From NCBI GenBank assembly GCA_039881145.1, contig JAYKKI010000027.1:17805001-17869000 (forward strand): 64,000 nt of DNA, written 5' to 3'. Made by a program: the position numbers and the translations under genes. The notes under the pieces were generated by a model. It did no database searches and had not been told where the DNA came from. It saw nothing but the letters and a program-made list of their open reading frames with translations. Below are positions 5,526-63,639 of the stretch, piece after piece; position 1 is the stretch's first letter, and each line of letters starts with the position of its first letter. The stretch comes from Druceiella hillmani (lineage: Eukaryota; Arthropoda; Insecta; Lepidoptera; Hepialidae).

Positions 5526-6521
5526 TAATTATATTAATACGCTAATATTAGCGTGTTCATCCGTGGTGTGCGGAGACGTCATGGTTGAAAAAAACGTCAA
5601 ACAACTCCTATTACACAACACAAAAGCAAAGTCCAGGAAAATGTCAGGTTAGTTCAGTTTCGAAATCATAGGGTAATCAAATCAATGACAATGAGTATGG
5701 CATAATGTCGGCTCCCTTACCTGTCATACCGACGAAGCAAACCAATCAAAAACAAAAAAAACGGTGTCATTATCTGTCGCACTCTTCCTTCCTATAGCAC
5801 CAATATATATGCCACTCTTTCTCAAATTAAATAGCGTTGCTGTCTGTCTCACTCTTACTTATTTCCATTGCCGTCTATCTAACTCAAACTATATAAAACT
5901 TGAATCTTACCGATTAGCCCTAAATGCCACTTTTACTGAATAAAGTTATTGATTTTAAATTGGTTCTTGTTGGCAAAAAAATACAAACTTTTTCTTATGC
6001 ACGATCTAAAATGTATGATTTTAAAATCTTATTCAATTGAGTTTAGTTTCAAAATAAATTGCTATGAAAGTACCAGTACATTTTTTTCATACCATGAAGT
6101 ATCAAATTTAGCTGAAAACAATTTCTCCTGATAATTTCATGAAACAATTGAAACAAAAATACTTCTTGTGTAAACTATAGCAAATCTTGCATTATTATTC
6201 TATTTTTTTTGTAACAATTACATACGTATGCGTAAAAGCATATTACGTATGTCATCATTAATTTAATTATGCAAATATTAATAAATTATGCTAAAATTAG
6301 AATAATTAAATTAGCAAATTTGTCAATGCATAATAAAAAAATGCATAATAAAATACGCTTACATGGTAAGAAACGGCTTCATTTTCTTTTTTATATTTTT
6401 ATCTGGATAGTCATAAACTTGCGAAAGAGTGTAGCTTTTACTCCAGTTGACGTTCAATTTTGAGATCCCTTTGTATTTTAGTACAATTTTTATATCTTAT
6501 TATAATATAATACCATCTATT

Positions 6522-6735
6522 GAATATATTTGGCGTTAATTTTGTAGAAATTCAACATTCACAATTAAATGAAACTATTTGATGTAGTATTATTTCTACT
6601 TCCTATAAGTTCTATTAGCAAAGCTTTGCTAATAAGCCACTTGAAGATGTTGTAATACAACGAAACCTAGGTTGTGGTAAAGAACTTAAAGAATGTAGAA
6701 ATAATACTACATCACGTAGTTTCATTTAATTGGGA
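6522..6735. mobile_element. Short inverted Penelope-type terminal repeat pair (locus A)
   Basis: Two inverted arms share the PLE terminal repeat seen at 46237, 47396 and 62211. The left arm begins with the outer tail (GAATATATTTGGCGTTAATT, then GTAGAAATTCA) and runs into AATGAAACTATTTGATGTAG. The right arm ends TACATCACGTAGTTTCATTT-AATTG. The left arm is truncated before the ribozyme; the right arm carries one ribozyme-like sequence. No coding DNA lies between them. The short palindrome TTAGCAAAGCTTTGCTAA (about 6615-6632) lies at the junction of the two arms. Confidence 0.75.
6637..6677 (+). ncRNA. Hammerhead ribozyme relic, core mutated
   Basis: It matches the 41-nt ribozymes at 46401 and 62354: stem I CCAC...GTGG, stem II GTTGT/ACAAC, then GAAA, then palindromic ACCTAGGT. 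Two changes stand out. The first core base is T instead of C (TTGAAGA for CTGAAGA), which in hammerheads normally abolishes cleavage. The cleavage triplet is GTT rather than GTC, which is still a permitted NUH triplet. It is probably inactive. Confidence 0.6.
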
Positions 6736-6973
6736 ATTAGTCCAGAATAAGAGATTTAGTTACTTAATATTGCTTTGTATTTTGCAAAGATCAGATATCT
6801 ACCCTCAATATTAATTAAAGCATAAATATAAATATCGATATTTTTCAGAATTTCTTCCTAATTCTAAATTACATTTTTATTTGATTTCATATATTATGAA
6901 CGGGACCAAGCAAAAATTATACAACAATTTTCTATCAGCTATCTAATTTATAATAAAGTTGGAACACTCAATA

Positions 6974-14610: not shown

Positions 14611-14965
14611 TAGTTTCTGAGGGCACTAACTTGATTAAATCAAATTAAGTGGTTCAAAAGATATAATCGACGAAAAGTCATAAGCGTGTAAAATGAGATT
14701 TTAATGACCGTAACAGTAAATGTAAATACTGCAAGAAAAGCTTATTTTTTCTCGAGTTTCGTTAGTGGATATATAATAAATTAGAAGATTTTCTGACAGC
14801 ACTAGCTAGATTAAATCAAATTAAGTGGTTCAAAAAATATCATCGACGAAAAGCTACAAACAGGTAAAAGGAGATAATAATGACCATGGTAGTAAATGTA
14901 AATATTACAAGAAAAGCTTATATTTTCTCGAGTTCAGTTAGTGGATATATAATAAATTATAAGAG
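14611..14965 (+). repeat. Direct tandem duplication, period about 176 bp
   Basis: The segment with GATTAAATCAAATTAAGTGG starts at 14633 and again at 14809. Each copy ends with TAGTGGATATATAATAAATTA. Unit 2 has only one copy (about 38700-38870), so this happened in unit 1 after the large duplication, or was lost in unit 2. Confidence 0.85.
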
Positions 14966-46036: not shown

Positions 46037-46331
46037 CCAGTATTCAACTTTTTTATCTTTATATAACGAAGGAAATATATACAGGATCTTTGATTTTTCT
46101 ATCCGCAGTCGTTTTCTTAAACATATAGTAATATAAATTAATTTAAATAAAATTGTATTCATATATAATATTTAGTACAACACGCATAATAGACATTATC
46201 ATAGTTTTGTACAAGCTTAACTATTTGTAAATTATTGAATATTTTTGGCGTTAATTTTGTAGAAATTCATTATTCACCATTAAATGAAACTACGTGATGT
46301 TGTATTATTTCTACTTTCTTTAATTTCTTAC

Positions 46332-46372
46332 CCACGACGTAGGTTTCGTTGTATTACAACTTCTTCAGATGG
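46332..46372 (-). ncRNA. Hammerhead ribozyme (minus strand), slightly degenerate
   Basis: On the minus strand: CCAT (stem I), CTGAAGA core, A, GTTGTAATACAAC (stem II, 5 bp with 3-nt loop), GAAA core, then CCTACGTC and GTGG closing stem I. Stem III has lost perfect symmetry (ACCTACGT). One stem I pair is G-T. The core is intact. Confidence 0.65.
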
Positions 46373-46400
46373 GATATTATCAAAGATCTTTGCTAATATC

Positions 46401-46441
46401 CCACCTGAAGATGTTGTAATACAACGAAACCTAGGTCGTGG
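46401..46441 (+). ncRNA. Minimal hammerhead ribozyme of a Penelope-like element
   Basis: Reading 5' to 3': CCAC (46401-46404, stem I), CTGAAGA (46405-46411, core CUGANGA), T, GTTGT-AAT-ACAAC (stem II), GAAA core, then ACCTAGGT, whose two halves can pair as stem III. The triplet GTC (46435-46437) precedes the predicted cut, and GTGG (46438-46441) pairs with CCAC. The T between core and stem II is unpaired and not canonical. A stem III this short can hardly close within one molecule. The known PLE hammerheads were proposed to act as dimers joined through that palindrome, and the same fits here. Confidence 0.75.
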
Positions 46442-47095
46442 TAAATAAATTAAAGAAAGTAGAAATAATACTACATCACGTAGTTTCATTTAATTGGGAA
46501 TATGTAAAGTTTCAAAGATTTTTTTTCGACGAACTATTTACAAATATTTATTAGTATTACTATTATTATCATTATTTACTTATCACTATGTAAGTATATA
46601 GCTTATATCCTTCACAAGCAAAAGAAAAGCTGTCTGACAGCACTATCTGTGATAAAAAAACAAACATTATTTTGTGCAGTGTTTTCCATTTTATTAATAT
46701 TAAAGTTGTCTAAATAGGGTTTAAAATAATATTCTCGAAAGCAAATTTTAGTATTCAAATTTTCATTTTATTTGTTTTAAAAAATAATTAAATATAGAAA
46801 TATTATATTTTGTATATATTGAGATATTATTCAAATTATTTCATCAAGCTATTTTTAATAAATTAAATTTCATCTCCAGAATCCATCTCCAGTCAAAAGC
46901 ATCCCTAGATCGTATTTACGAGAACAGATCACGAACCAAGTTAATAGAGGTTGGTGACCGGTGTAAATTGTATTCCCCTTTAATTCATTGTTTTATAAAA
47001 TTCAATTCATACTCAGTGGTTATTGGATGTGACCTTACCCATCTTTTTGTTTCTATTTTATGCATTTGTAATGTAATATTTAAATATTTATGATA

Positions 47096-47164: not shown

Positions 47165-47452
47165 TTTCTACGGATATTTGCATTATCGAAAACATGTCGA
47201 ATTCAAGTAGCCTTACTTCACAAGAACTTAAATGTGACGTTATGTTCACAAAAATGGGAATGTATAGCGTACTTTTTTACTTTATACTCATGAACAAGCG
47301 AAGTTCAAAACAATACGTGGTCTGACAGAACAGATGGCAGATATCAATAAGTTCGAAGACAGCGATATACTTTCCTAATTCATAATTATTTTTTCCACAA
47401 TTAAATGAAACTACGTGATGCAGTACTACTTTTACTCTCATTAAGTTATTTA

Positions 47453-47490
47453 CCACGACCTAAGTTTCTTAGTATTACTTCTTCAGATGG
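47453..47490 (-). ncRNA. Degenerate hammerhead ribozyme in PLE terminal repeat
   Basis: On the minus strand: CCAT, CTGAAGA, a shortened and weak stem II (AGTAATACTAA), GAAA, CTTAGGTC, GTGG. It is in the sense orientation of the minus PLE copy, after its coding part, which places the ribozyme in the 3' repeat. The damaged stem II makes activity doubtful. Confidence 0.55.
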
Positions 47491-47884
47491 GCTGTTAGCA
47501 AAGATTGACTCTTAGGAACTTCCAACAGCATTTACGTATTACAGAAAATAATAGCGGAAACCGGGTTTGCGCGGGTTTTCCCACTGCTTACGTTAGTGAG
47601 TTCATAGTAGGGGAGCGGTGTAATTTTATTTTAGTTTCGTTAATTATACAAAATACAAGTATTTTACTGAGGGTAATAAATTAGATTGATGTTATTCTAT
47701 GAGGTTATATAATTCAAATGTTCCAGTGTATGTAATAAAGTTATATGGATATTATACTCCGTAATAAATTTATAAATAGCGAGAGTAACTGATGGTTAGA
47801 ACAAAGTTGAACCACTGGTTACACACATCTCCCATTTCATTTTTTATTTTTATTTAGATGTGTAGCCGGGCTGTAATAATTTCA

Positions 47885-48634
47885 AGTGTATTGTAGCATC
47901 AATGTTGACGAACTGTATTATATCCAGAAGATATTAAGTATGGGGGATGACATTGTATTTAGTTGTTCATTTAACATATTAACGTTGGTGTCTTTTTTAC
48001 GTTTATTTATTTCTAATGTTTTTTATTTATTTGTAACATATGGGGAGCATTGTCGGTATGAGAGTGGTGGTTATTTTCAATGAGATGTTTTCCTAAATGA
48101 GATGTGTCTGGTTTATTATTACGCTAACTAGCAATTTGTTCTTTGTATCTGGTAGTAACATCTCTTCCTGTTTGACCTACCTATGTGCTATTACAGTCAT
48201 TATATTTAAGTTTATAGATACCGCTCCTTTTATATTTATTTATTTTTTTCTATATTATTAATAACGGTTTTACCAAAGGTATTTAAAGTTCTATAAGTAC
48301 ATGTGGTATTATTTGTCGTTTTTATTATTAGTCAAGAGTTTCTCTAATTTAATTAATACATTACCTTTACGGAAATTAGGTTTTTCTAGTGGGATGGTTA
48401 ACGCTCTGTGAATCTTCGAATGGAAGGCTGCTAACTTATGGGATCAAGGAGGGGGTGAATGACCATTAATTATGAAGTCGGCAAGTGTGTCTTTTCTAAA
48501 TATACTAAATTTATGTTTATTGTTTTTGCGTTCTAATATGATATCTAAAAAGTTTAGTTTATTATCTGGTTCTAGTTCTAAAGTAAATTTTATATTGTTG
48601 TGTAGTGAGTTGGCAAAGTTATCACACTGGTCTT
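47885..48634 (-). pseudogene. PLE polyprotein remnant, minus copy (RT end to endonuclease)
   Basis: From 48634 downward the minus strand reads DQCDNFAN, NIKFTLELEPDNKLNFLDI (the region just after the reverse transcriptase active site), FRKDTLADFIINGHS, and AAFHSKIHRALTIPLEKPNF. After a linker there is an SGIY-type remnant (AVSINLN in frame with gaps) and QTGRD-like sequence. The catalytic YVDD part lies beyond the truncation and is absent from this copy. Many stops and shifts are present. The 3' flank continues to the terminal repeat at 47396-47490. Confidence 0.75.
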
Positions 48635-49330
48635 AAGAAAGATTGCCTAAATATTATTTCAAATATCTTAGAAAAGAAACGGTTAAACCCCATTGAAATA
48701 TCGAAAATTGTAGACCTGGTTGAATTATGCATGGAACAAATATATTTTTTATTCGATAACCAATTTTTTTTAACAAGTCAATGGCCTTGCAATTGATTCC
48801 CCCTCAGTCCCCTGTTAGCCGAGTTATTCATGAACAATCTAGAAACCAACCTATTAAACAGTACATTAGCGACTAATTTAGTATACTATTATCGATACGT
48901 AGACGACATACTTATCTGCTGGAAAGGTACGAAGCGACAGTTAGACCAATTTGTTAACTTTGCCAACTTCCTATACAACAATATCAAATTCACTTTAAAA
49001 ATAGAATTCGATAATGAACTAAGCTTTTTAGATATTAGAACGCAAAGCAAACAAAAATTTAGAATATTTAGAAAAGACAATTTGCCGACTCCATAATTAA
49101 TGGTCATTCACAACACCCTAGGTCACCTAAGTAAGCAGCCTTCCATTCGATGATTCACAGAACGTTAACCATCCCACTAGAAAAAATCTAATTTGCGTAA
49201 AGAAATAAAAACTATAAAACAAATCGCAGTAAATAATAATTATAACCCATAAATTTTCACAAAACTGTACCAGAATAAATACGAAAAATAATAATCCAAG
49301 AAATATAGCCGGTCGTACCAAATAATAATA
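48635..49330 (+). pseudogene. PLE reverse transcriptase remnant, plus copy
   Basis: Segments in order: KKDCLNIISNILEKKRLNP, VDLVELCMEQIYFLFDNQFF, then a one-base loss in the GLAxxSPLSP box (ATTGATTCCCCCTCAGTCCC). The frame resumes at LSPLLAELFMNNLE and reaches the catalytic YRYVDDIL (YVDD at 48896-48907), then NIKFTLKIEFDNELSFLDI. After a stop at 49097, decayed FHSMIHRTLTIPLEK follows. YRYVDD with the following order is typical of Penelope reverse transcriptases, which are related to telomerase. A 5' truncation removes the N-terminal half. The single frameshift and few stops in the core suggest only moderate age. Confidence 0.85.
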
Positions 49331-49439
49331 TATTTTTTAATAAATCCATTCCATTAAAAGATAATATGGCAATTTAACTAGGAAAACCCCTAACCGATAA
49401 TGCGAATTTAAATAATACCACATGTGCCTATAGTACCTT

Positions 49440-49980
49440 AATTACTTGAGTAAAACCCTTATTAACAATAAGAAAAAAATAGATAAATATCAAAAGAGCG
49501 GTATTTATAAACTTAAATGCGACGACTGTAATAGCGTATACATAGGTCAAACAGGAAGAAATTTTACTACCAGATGCATATAACACATTGTCAGTTGGCA
49601 AAGTAATAAACCAGACACACCTCACTTTATAAAACACCTCATTGAAAAAACCATCACCCTCATATCGACAATGCTCCCTATATATTACAAATAAATACAA
49701 AAGGCAAGAAACTAAATATACTAGAAACATTAGAAATAAACAGACATAAAAGAAACACTAATGTTAATATATTAAATGAACAACTAAGTACAATATTATC
49801 AGCCACGCTTAATATCTCTATATATTACAAATAAATACAAAAGGCTATAAATTCATTCTCCTAGAAACATTAGAAGTAAACAGACATAAAAGAAACACAA
49901 ATGTTAATATTTTAAATGAACAACTAAATACAATATCGTCACCCAGGCTTAATATCTTCTATACACAATATAGTTAGACA
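49440..49980 (+). pseudogene. PLE GIY-YIG endonuclease remnant, plus copy
   Basis: One frame reads SGIYKLKCDDCNSVYIGQTG followed by RNFTTRC: GIY at 49500-49508, a CxxC pair (49518-49529), YIG at 49539-49547 and the conserved Arg after QTG. This is the endonuclease that nicks the target in Penelope elements. A stop comes at 49581. Further on, NKPDTPHFIKHLIEK and, in the repeated part, LETLEVNRHKRNTNVNILNE resemble the C-terminal end of PLE proteins. The part 49678-49965 is duplicated in tandem. Confidence 0.85.
49678..49965 (+). repeat. 140-bp direct tandem duplication inside the PLE
   Basis: CTATATATTACAAATAAATA begins at 49678 and again at 49818. Both copies contain ACATTAGAA(A/G)TAAACAGACA and end with CTTAATATCT. 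The minus PLE copy has only one. The copies differ by several substitutions and one small insertion. Confidence 0.9.
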
Positions 49981-50639
49981 ACATTGATACTACAGTAAAA
50001 ATTAAAAATAAAGTGGGAAATATGTATAATTAGTGGTATAACCTTGTTCTAACCATCAGATATCCGTGCTATTGCATAAATATATTACTAAGAATAATAT
50101 CCATTTAATTTTATGACACCATAGAATTACTACATAGAATTACTGAAATAATTGTATATTGTAGAACTTTCGAAAATATAGTAAAACCACATCGCTCCCC
50201 TGTAATGAGTAATACGAAAATATAATAATTCCAAACCTAGGTTGTGGTAAAGAACTTCAATTAAGTAGAAATAATACTACATCACGTAGTTTCATTTAAT
50301 TGTGAATAAAGAATTTCTACAAAATTAACGCCAAATATATTCGATAATATTTTTGGTTTCATTTGATTTGTATATACTCATATATTTTTTTCATATATTT
50401 TTCATCCCTTTTTCCCCATTTTCATGTTCCATCTATTCGGCGATTGTGGTTAGTTATTAATTATACCTGATTATATTGCATATTATATTATTTCAATGAA
50501 GTTAATTACCCATATCTCAAATACTCATTCAAAGCTGATTCATAGAAATATGGAATATGTATATTAAATCGATATTATAAATAGTTTCAGACTTAAATGA
50601 AAGCTTACAAAACTTTATGCACTAAAATGTTTAACATAA

Positions 50640-61157: not shown

Positions 61158-62268
61158 AAAACCACGGACTATTAACAACAAATTTCTTGTTCGACTTACA
61201 ATTATTTGACTTGAATAAATAAGCTATAAAACTGATTAATAAATAAAACATCGATTAAAAACTGATTTACGAAAAAACGTCAAAAATTTTGCAATACATA
61301 CATGAATTCATTATATTCTTTACGAAACATCGTGCATAATTTATCAGGACATAACTCACTATTAGACAATCATGTAGCATAATTTGAAGTCATCTCATCC
61401 ACATCTGACAATGAATGTCGTTAAATTAATCCATTCAATTCATAAAAACTTCACTCAAATCGATCTATGGTTTCATTTATTCTGCGATCCTTACATCATT
61501 TAAGAAACACACAATAATTAACTATTCCCATAACTAGTCTTATGATCAGTCACATTAAGTAATGTGTGTAACCCAATTGTTTATAAAAGCATGCCTTATA
61601 AATTTCATTGCAAAAATATAATTTTCACCATTTCTTAAGAAATTTTACTGTTTTTAAATATTTCTTGATGAATCATGCTTAAGATGCTCATCTGTTCATG
61701 AAAATTTATGCAGACATAGTTCAGGATTCCAACTGAAATATGGGGTACTATTTAACGAGAGAAATATTATCTTTCTATACATTAAACAAATTTTGAACTA
61801 CAACATTTAAATGAATGACATAACGCAGATATAAAATCGCCGAAATGTTATTGGTAGGGAAATTTTGCATTTTGTCATGTTTGAATCTCACCGCTTTAAT
61901 GGAAAATTGACGCAGGTGAAGGCACTAGTAAAAGCTAGTATTTAATAAAATCACTAAATTCGTAGCAATATAAATAATAATTCTAAAATAACAATGTAAA
62001 ATTGTATAAATGATTTCACTAATTCTTTTTGTGATTTAGAAAGCTATTCATTTATTTATTATAAATCACCTTTTAAACTATAGACGGAAAGTGCATGGGT
62101 TTAAATGTGTCACGATCTATAAATTAAAAATGTAAAAATAAATCTAGACTGAATCATATTTGCGTCTTTAATGATGTTATGGCAAAAACGACTTTAAAGT
62201 AATAATTTTTCACAATTAAATGTGACTACGTGATGTAGTATTATTTCTACTTTCTTTAATTTCTTTAA

Positions 62269-62309
62269 CCACGACCTAGGTTTCGTTGTATTACAACATC
62301 TTCAGGTGG
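62269..62309 (-). ncRNA. Minimal hammerhead ribozyme, minus strand, intact core
   Basis: On the minus strand: CCAC, CTGAAGA, T, GTTGT-AAT-ACAAC, GAAA, CCTAGGTC, GTGG. All core bases and the 4-bp stem I are present. It is identical over 41 bases to the plus-strand ribozyme at 62354. Confidence 0.75.
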
Positions 62310-62353
62310 GATATTGACAAAGATTGATATTGGCAAAGATCTTTGCCAATATC

Positions 62354-62394
62354 CCACCTGAAGATGTTGTAATACAACGAAACCTAGGTCGTGG
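62354..62394 (+). ncRNA. Minimal hammerhead ribozyme, plus strand, intact core
   Basis: Same 41 bases as 46401-46441. Stem I is CCAC (62354-62357) with GTGG (62391-62394). The core is CTGAAGA (62358-62364) and GAAA. The cut is predicted after GTC at 62390. Because the arms are inverted, a transcript of either strand contains one sense ribozyme and one antisense ribozyme that could pair into a long hairpin and hide it. Confidence 0.8.
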
Positions 62395-63639
62395 TTAAAG
62401 AAATTAAAGAAAGTAGAAATAATACTACATCACGTAGTCTCATTTAATTGTGAATAATGAATTTCTACAAAATTAACGCCAAATATATTCAATATCAGTA
62501 ATCATTTTTGTTATTGTAGCAATGTGTATAAGTAGTTCACTATGATTGCTCCAATATTTTAAGAGCAATTACTTTAATTTTGAGAGCTCTGTTTATTTTA
62601 TAGGTCTGGTTTTTTATGTCATTTTCCTTTTTTTAAGCATGTGATGGAAAACAGTCAAAACCTTTTATAGATAAAACCTTTTTATGAGTTAAAAGATAAA
62701 TTATTTTTTATGTATTTGTTGTTTTACGTTCATCATTTTGTTCTCGATGATAATAAAATAAGATCTTACTTGTCAATGTAAAAAAAACTGTCGCCTAATT
62801 CGGTATCCATTCAATATAATATATCATCGCACTTCACTGTACCGGAATATAATCTTATTAACTCTTTCCTTAAAATATACATGAATTTAGTACATTTGAA
62901 GAAACTTTAAAATCCGTTCAAATTTTATTCCTGTATCAAAGTCATCTATTTTCTTTAAAGTTGCATATTGAAAATCTTGGTAACAGTAAAGTAAATAATA
63001 CAAAAATGGAAAATTATCATCTATAACACATGAAATAAAGTTACATTAAATATAGTCATTATTAAATTGTTATGACAGAAGGAAACTTTTATTACGGTTT
63101 TCAATAAAGCATTGAAATCAATAAATATTTATCATTATTTATATCAATAAAAATTTATATCGTTTTATTAAAACAGGGAAAATTGCGACCAGATTGGTCT
63201 TTATGAATAAGAATTTCTTTTTATAAATGTATTTCTGAAGGAGACGTCGTATCCCTCTGTCTATTAGACGTGAAAATTTTCTGATAAATGTATTCATTAA
63301 AATTACTTTTTTTTCACATTATTAAATATTGAATTATTAAGTAAATTTTAACATAGTAAGACGTATACGGTTTTAAATTAGAGCAACCTGCTTGGATCAG
63401 TTACCCAACTTTGAAATAAAACTTTCTCAACTTCAATGGAACTCTCACTACGAGAGTTCTGTACACATTTAGTTATTTTTAAACACTTAATGTACGTAAC
63501 ATTCCCGTTAAACTACGAGTATTTACAAAATTTTAATTTTTGGAACGAAAATAAATTGTCTACTATATTATTTACAGGCGCATGATTAAAAATATTTTGT
63601 ATATGATCTAACTACAAATTAACAATTTTCGGTTTTGTT

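Follow-up and report, generated by a model that had tools for sequence, protein, structure and literature searches.

What is a 286-bp insertion that carries the same ribozyme-like motif on both strands, facing itself, and how was it made? The question is raised by positions 62211-62496 of the stretch of DNA analysed here (the window, 64 kb, with 25-32% GC per 4-kb bin). An inverted-repeat search of the window returns two arms, 62205-62324 and 62339-62458, which are 120 nt long and 98% complementary. Both flanks carry a 13-bp direct repeat with one mismatch, AGTAATAATTTTT at 62198-62210 and AGTAATCATTTTT at 62497-62509, which delimits the insert to 62211-62496, with arms of about 114 nt around a short centre. 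The left arm (62211-62324) has its sense on the minus strand, while the right arm (62339-62496, plus strand) continues into a 44-nt tail (62453-62496) that the left arm lacks. Between them, part of the arm end is repeated once more within the head-to-head junction (62325-62338), and a perfect 14+14-bp palindrome (pair I4) lies at the centre of the insert. The coordinates that a preliminary description of this locus gave for the inverted insert, and for a 41-nt motif on each strand, were recovered, and the 13-bp target duplication that it reported is borne out, with one mismatch.

The motif reads CCAC, CTGAAGA, T, GTTGT-AAT-ACAAC, GAA, ACCTAGGT, C and GTGG, with the same letters at 62354-62394 (plus) and 62269-62309 (minus). 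It presents CUGANGA, GAAA and NUH in type I order, and every core element of a minimal hammerhead is found on both strands, as had been proposed. In the plus copy, stem I is CCAC/GTGG, the extra T is at 62365, stem II is GTTGT/ACAAC and the palindrome occupies 62382-62389; self-cleavage is predicted after C17 at 62390, and in the mirrored copy after 62273. When 501 bp were searched against Rfam with a permissive threshold, 24 matches resulted, of which the strong ones were to miRNA-precursor models; we rejected them as artefacts because the insert forms a long hairpin, and the motif was then searched alone. Its sole match was Hammerhead_1 (RF00163), at 14.6 bits (E 0.21) and below the gathering score of 34, in an alignment that spans stem I, CUGANGA, GAAA and GUC, so the covariance-model check suggested in the preliminary description succeeded as to the alignment and fell short as to the score. 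The whole 64-kb window had no Rfam match at the gathering score. A genome-wide search for RF00163 had no match, an outcome that carries no information given 73 of 260322 candidates scored and 0 of 14 controls detected.

As a monomer the motif was rejected as a hammerhead, since its predicted fold differs and is no more stable than that of shuffles (z -0.89). The energy model does not permit a stem III of 3 bp closed by a 2-nt loop, which agrees with the earlier suggestion of a minimal hammerhead of the kind found in Penelope-like elements (PLEs), with a stem III too short to work alone. For two 41-mers the double hammerhead is the exact cofold MFE, at -23.0 versus 2 x -7.2 kcal/mol. As 81 of 500 dinucleotide shuffles cofold to an energy as low (and 128 of 500 gain as much on pairing), we offer this fold as consistent with the motif and not as proof.

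The identity of the insert comes from its coding kin. Several copies in the same genome (2.59 Gb, 181 contigs) retain an open frame of 810 codons; in two of them, L077 and L078, the pLTR is 96.4-96.8% identical to that of the insert and the ORF starts MNFYKINAKYIQY, the exact translation of window positions 62457-62495. L078 scores 55.2 bits against RVT_1 (cut-off 29.6) and 21.0 against GIY-YIG, just below the cut-off of 22.6; the GIY-YIG ORF of L040, which is of the Penelope type, passes (PF01541, 34.5 bits), and a diverged pLTR follows it in L041. Among 7992 proteins scored, 906 are relatives of the ORF at E <= 0.001, the best at about 45% identity, and they include RT proteins annotated from the insects Parnassius, Euphydryas and Diabrotica. 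The shared pLTR and the identical ORF start identify the insert as the pLTR, the mostly non-coding end, of a PLE. In keeping with EN-containing PLEs, the coding kin have an RT and GIY-YIG ORF, of which the insert itself holds the first 13 codons only; the pLTRs are inverted head-to-head with the optional tail on one, and a short target site duplication (TSD) surrounds them in an AT-rich target. The family is large, with 3,904 places in the genome matching a 66-nt stretch around the ORF start with up to 3 mismatches; for coding copies an RT fragment was the more useful query, a GIY-YIG family search of the genome giving only 2 matches.

This identity changes two points of the preliminary description. 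The insert had been said to have no coding DNA, and for the most part this holds, yet 62457-62495 encodes the start of the element's own ORF. It had also been presumed to depend on another element's enzyme, a presumption we abandon for the end of a PLE that has open 810-codon RT/GIY-YIG copies of its own. Furthermore, the window's pLTR variant is also found joined to the ORF start, in exact matches and in the coding copy L110, so that on these joins a dedicated non-autonomous source family is not needed, though one may still exist. A candidate for such a source is the form seen in L042 (5701-6480; also in L099), in which most of the ORF is deleted and about 100 N-terminal codons run directly into the 3' untranslated end with its pLTR; a search for this junction found it in 1 of 40 scored candidates (of 1916).

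The ribozyme itself is not new: minimal, dimer-cleaving hammerheads in PLE pLTRs are already known. The available text of PMC7761336 describes PLE hammerheads as minimal and possibly cleaving as dimers, and the core, the very short stem III and the location in the pLTR are alike in those of Cervera & de la Pena 2014 and Lunse et al. 2017, as described in PMC7761336 and PMC6155905. A hammerhead of this type in a small element might also suggest a metazoan non-LTR retrozyme, that is, a tandem element processed by its hammerheads (HHRs) into circular RNA and using PLE enzymes in trans. According to the available part of PMC7229834, such elements share the type I hammerhead, the low GC and the length of a few hundred bp, and they are thought to borrow PLE enzymes; our insert is likewise AT-rich and has a TSD. 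Retrozymes, however, are tandem HHR-to-HHR units that give circular RNAs, whereas here the arms are inverted, the full arms, whose start lies some 51 nt upstream of the predicted cut, hold an uncleaved hammerhead and are not HHR-to-HHR monomers, and the sequence is that of a PLE's own pLTR and ORF start. We thus regard a retrozyme as extremely improbable.

The extra T before stem II, which had been called unusual, is present in the motif but is not peculiar to the insert in the window. It creates an AUG 26 nt before the predicted cut, which reads AUG UUG UAA (62364-62372), a two-codon frame 93 nt before the ORF start codon that could be a small upstream frame. We rejected it as the main start codon, a role known from the anole, on the grounds of this reading and of the ORF start at 62457. 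A viroid hammerhead reportedly has an extra residue in its core as well.

Did the palindrome move as a unit, as the preliminary description held? The first set of copies consists of the 40 scored of 2388 candidates, those most like the window's, all of which were fetched; the query stops before the tail, and as these are the copies nearest to the window's, older ones may differ. The 80 matches in these 40 places exceed chance, and each place has a head-to-head pair. The search for further inserts with target duplications that had been proposed was fruitful, with a flanking direct repeat in 40/40 (9-16 bp long, 12 being the commonest length, and never more than one mismatch). A TSD score of at least 9 was reached by a copy's own ends in 39 of 40, versus 3 of 160 ends paired across copies; the exception is L063, whose tail is partial (to 62471) and whose direct repeat is no better than control. 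Around the 36 inserts with clean repeats, a TTAA-like motif, noticed post hoc, faces outward on both sides of the TSD, with T at +2 in 29 on the tailed side and the mirror A at -2 in 17 on the other. In the same copies the core pattern of the hammerhead is intact in 69 of the 80 arms of the 40 pLTR twins, and its letters are identical to the window's in 49. Mean per-site variation in pLTR arms is 0.009 within the motif versus 0.017 downstream, a difference that is no more than suggestive.

The centres are distinct in all 40 copies, and no two copies have a common left flank. Two separate RT start sites account for the outer ends. For tailed arms the site is S1, and the end lies at 62486-62500 in 39 of 40 copies; for tail-less arms it is S2, with an end that corresponds to 62452 in 21 copies and lies within 62446-62455 in all 40. 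In the window, the outer end of the left arm (62211) mirrors 62452, and the tail of the right arm runs from S2 to S1. Full arms start at 62339/62340 in most loci, as does the right arm of the window insert, and partner arms are cut off at various points from one locus to another. In L104, L105 and L108 the homology of the tailed arm to the coding element reaches past the usual S1 by about 10 nt of ORF sequence, which may point to a third RT start site.

With distinct centres and outer ends at two start sites, each insert was assembled afresh, contrary to the claim of movement as a unit. A palindrome that is itself mobile, either of a foldback type or as a non-autonomous element copied whole from read-through RNA, would account for many copies of like overall shape with TSDs. 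It is hard to reconcile with 40 distinct centres, with a second arm that is often shortened on its own, with a single arm flanked by a TSD (L021) and with coding twins of the same anatomy, and we consider it highly improbable.

The distribution of the tail is strict. With a fixed cut, all 40 copies of the first set have one tailed and one tail-less arm, the tailed arm being on the left in 20 and on the right in 20, as fetched. A second set was selected for a tailed arm: 40 of 1916 candidates were scored, 30 were fetched and 19 gave usable pairs, after leaving out six that were already in the first set (L009, L017, L018, L025, L030 and L038) and five more (L011 and L023, which are mutual duplicates, L013 and L021, which are single-arm inserts, and L019, in which the second arm is 84% identical). 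In all 19 pairs the partner of the tailed arm has no tail. The single-arm inserts, of which L021 has a perfect 12-bp TSD, indicate that pairing is not obligatory.

Coding copies follow the same pattern. When 150 RT matches were scored of 1637 candidates, 22 opposite-strand neighbours less than 6 kb apart were obtained, and all 22 are head to head. The predicted outer ends were fetched for 20 of these 22 pairs, of which 19 were readable (L119/L120 was left out), and 19/19 are one-tailed. By automatic calling, 9 pairs of the first 10 and 8 of the second 10 had one tail, and two other calls were corrected by hand, with perfect repeats at the corrected ends. L087/L088, called 'no tail' because of an adjoining old pLTR, has arms of its own, one tailed and one tail-less, whose ends carry a perfect 12-bp repeat. 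L125/L126, called 'two tails' at L125, is one-tailed, since what looks like a second tail contains a perfect 13-bp repeat that marks the tail-less end. Older tail-like sequence lies at L125 266-297, just past the TSD, as if the element had inserted beside a relic of its own tail.

Each of the three other inserts of the family within the window also has one tail per pair. At 47397-50346 is a coding twin, made of head-to-head, 5'-truncated and decayed RT/GIY-YIG copies, in which the minus arm (ORF residues from about 512) is tail-less and the plus arm (from about 410) is tailed; its GIY-YIG region has a 140-bp tandem duplication (49678-49963). Two pLTR twins, at 46233-46502 and 6518-6737, have the tailed arm on the left and the tail-less arm on the right, and for 6518-6737 no convincing target duplication was found.

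These observations bear on a mechanism that has been published for Penelope in bdelloids, where it was inferred from palindromes at inverted junctions (PMC3846280, as far as its available text goes). In that proposal, an antisense pLTR transcript has a terminal palindrome on which its 3' end would fold back to prime its own copy, and the resulting head-to-head palindrome would be inserted. The 14+14-bp palindrome at the centre of the window insert would suit such self-priming. It would, however, be expected to give mirror-equal arms and one junction, whereas an S1 and an S2 end were found in every pair read; moreover, the 40 centres are distinct and their fills mostly non-palindromic, partner arms are cut at several points, and the arms of the coding twin in the window are unequal. 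The one-tail rule in particular argues against self-priming, which is disfavoured and in our judgement very unlikely for this family.

Do the two arms come from one RNA source? The one common polymorphism, T/C at 62439, is concordant between arms in 39 of 40 inserts of the first set (22 TT, 17 CC and 1 TC), where chance would give about half; in the second set 18 of 19 are concordant, the remaining pair having a third base. The two members of every coding pair (22/22) fall in the same RT identity class (13 and 9 pairs). Mean arm distance is 0.019 within inserts versus 0.027 between them, and 0 of 5000 permutations were as low. Gene conversion could contribute to this concordance. However, minor variants that recur in two or more arms, 62439 aside, were confined to a single arm of the insert 27 times and present in its two arms 7 times, so the arms have diverged independently and the concordance is not mainly due to gene conversion. 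The concordance thus indicates that both arms derive from one source, either one RNA copied twice or two sister RNAs.

We consider it very probable that the insert is the pLTR product of a PLE, made by two-ended target-primed reverse transcription. According to this model, the GIY-YIG endonuclease, probably as a dimer, would make a staggered cut of about 12 bp that leaves 3' overhangs of about 12 nt. Each target 3' end would then prime one cDNA on RNA from one source. The cDNA of the tailed arm would start at S1, at about codon 13 of the ORF, and that of the tail-less arm at S2, immediately ahead of the start codon. The cDNAs would either terminate prematurely or reach the RNA 5' end (62339/62340), and their 3' ends would be joined through microhomology and small templated fills, giving a centre specific to each copy. 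The hammerhead would be copied uncleaved into both arms, and both arms of the window insert do retain it; in pairs made of pLTRs only, synthesis would have started at the pLTR nearest the RNA 5' end. A staggered cut primed at both ends predicts head-to-head pairs between TSDs, the orientation seen in 22/22 coding pairs, and the early-stopping partner arms and the unequal coding twin in the window fit two separate syntheses.

Two known PLEs of the Penelope/Poseidon clade come closest to the insert, as far as the available text of their reports goes. Poseidon of Anolis carolinensis (PAc, PMC11167929) and the Penelope of Adineta vaga (PMC3846280) share with our family the pLTR, the RT and GIY-YIG ORF, the TSD and the AT-rich target, as well as a tail that is bounded by two RT start sites and sits on one of two inverted head-to-head pLTRs. 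PAc also has a hammerhead whose cut lies 26 nt downstream of an AUG, as is predicted for the window insert, but its main ORF starts at stem II, whereas here the main ORF starts 67 nt after the predicted cut. The purified anole PLE cuts at AT-rich sites, cuts and extends both target strands, and starts reverse transcription at the two sites that bound the tail (PMC11167929); the positions of the arm ends and the TTAA-like flanks in our copies agree with these properties. In vitro, its start site does not differ between the top and bottom strands, and the one-tail rule is therefore not predicted by that report, at least in its available part. PMC3846280 describes the tail on one of the inverted pLTRs as optional. 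A strict rule of one tail per pair together with a shared source, as seen here, appears in neither account, and no statement of either was found in the PLE literature searched, mostly at the level of titles and the beginnings of abstracts.

L1 twin priming offers a further parallel: a second target strand primes on the element RNA and an inverted structure results between TSDs. In L1, what is inverted is an internal piece that for the most part does not overlap. In our family, unlike in L1, both cDNAs start at fixed sites close to one another and span the same sequence.

The rule of one tail and one source points to a paired, two-ended reaction and so bears on how PLEs insert; any genome rich in PLEs, or a purified protein, would serve to check it, and the present family, being abundant, supplies many clean inserts. 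With this in mind, one may speculate on a role for the hammerhead. The stem III palindrome might serve as a dimerisation element, joining two sister RNAs of one locus in a double hammerhead; a single dimeric PLE particle would then take up both, and each would serve on one strand of the cut, one at S1 and one at S2. We think this unlikely as things stand; if true, RNA dimerisation would explain the head-to-head pairs, the shared source and the one-tail rule. It would also explain why a ribozyme is kept whose cleavage, as the available text of PMC11167929 reports, is dispensable for insertion in vitro, and it offers a concrete hypothesis for the retention of a dimer-forming hammerhead.

Two tandem arrangements were also noted. 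The end of the pLTR and the start of the ORF form a satellite-like tandem array with a 174-bp unit in L109 (355-922), and in the window, at 14614-14964, there are two tandem copies of a 176-bp unit with an 85% match.
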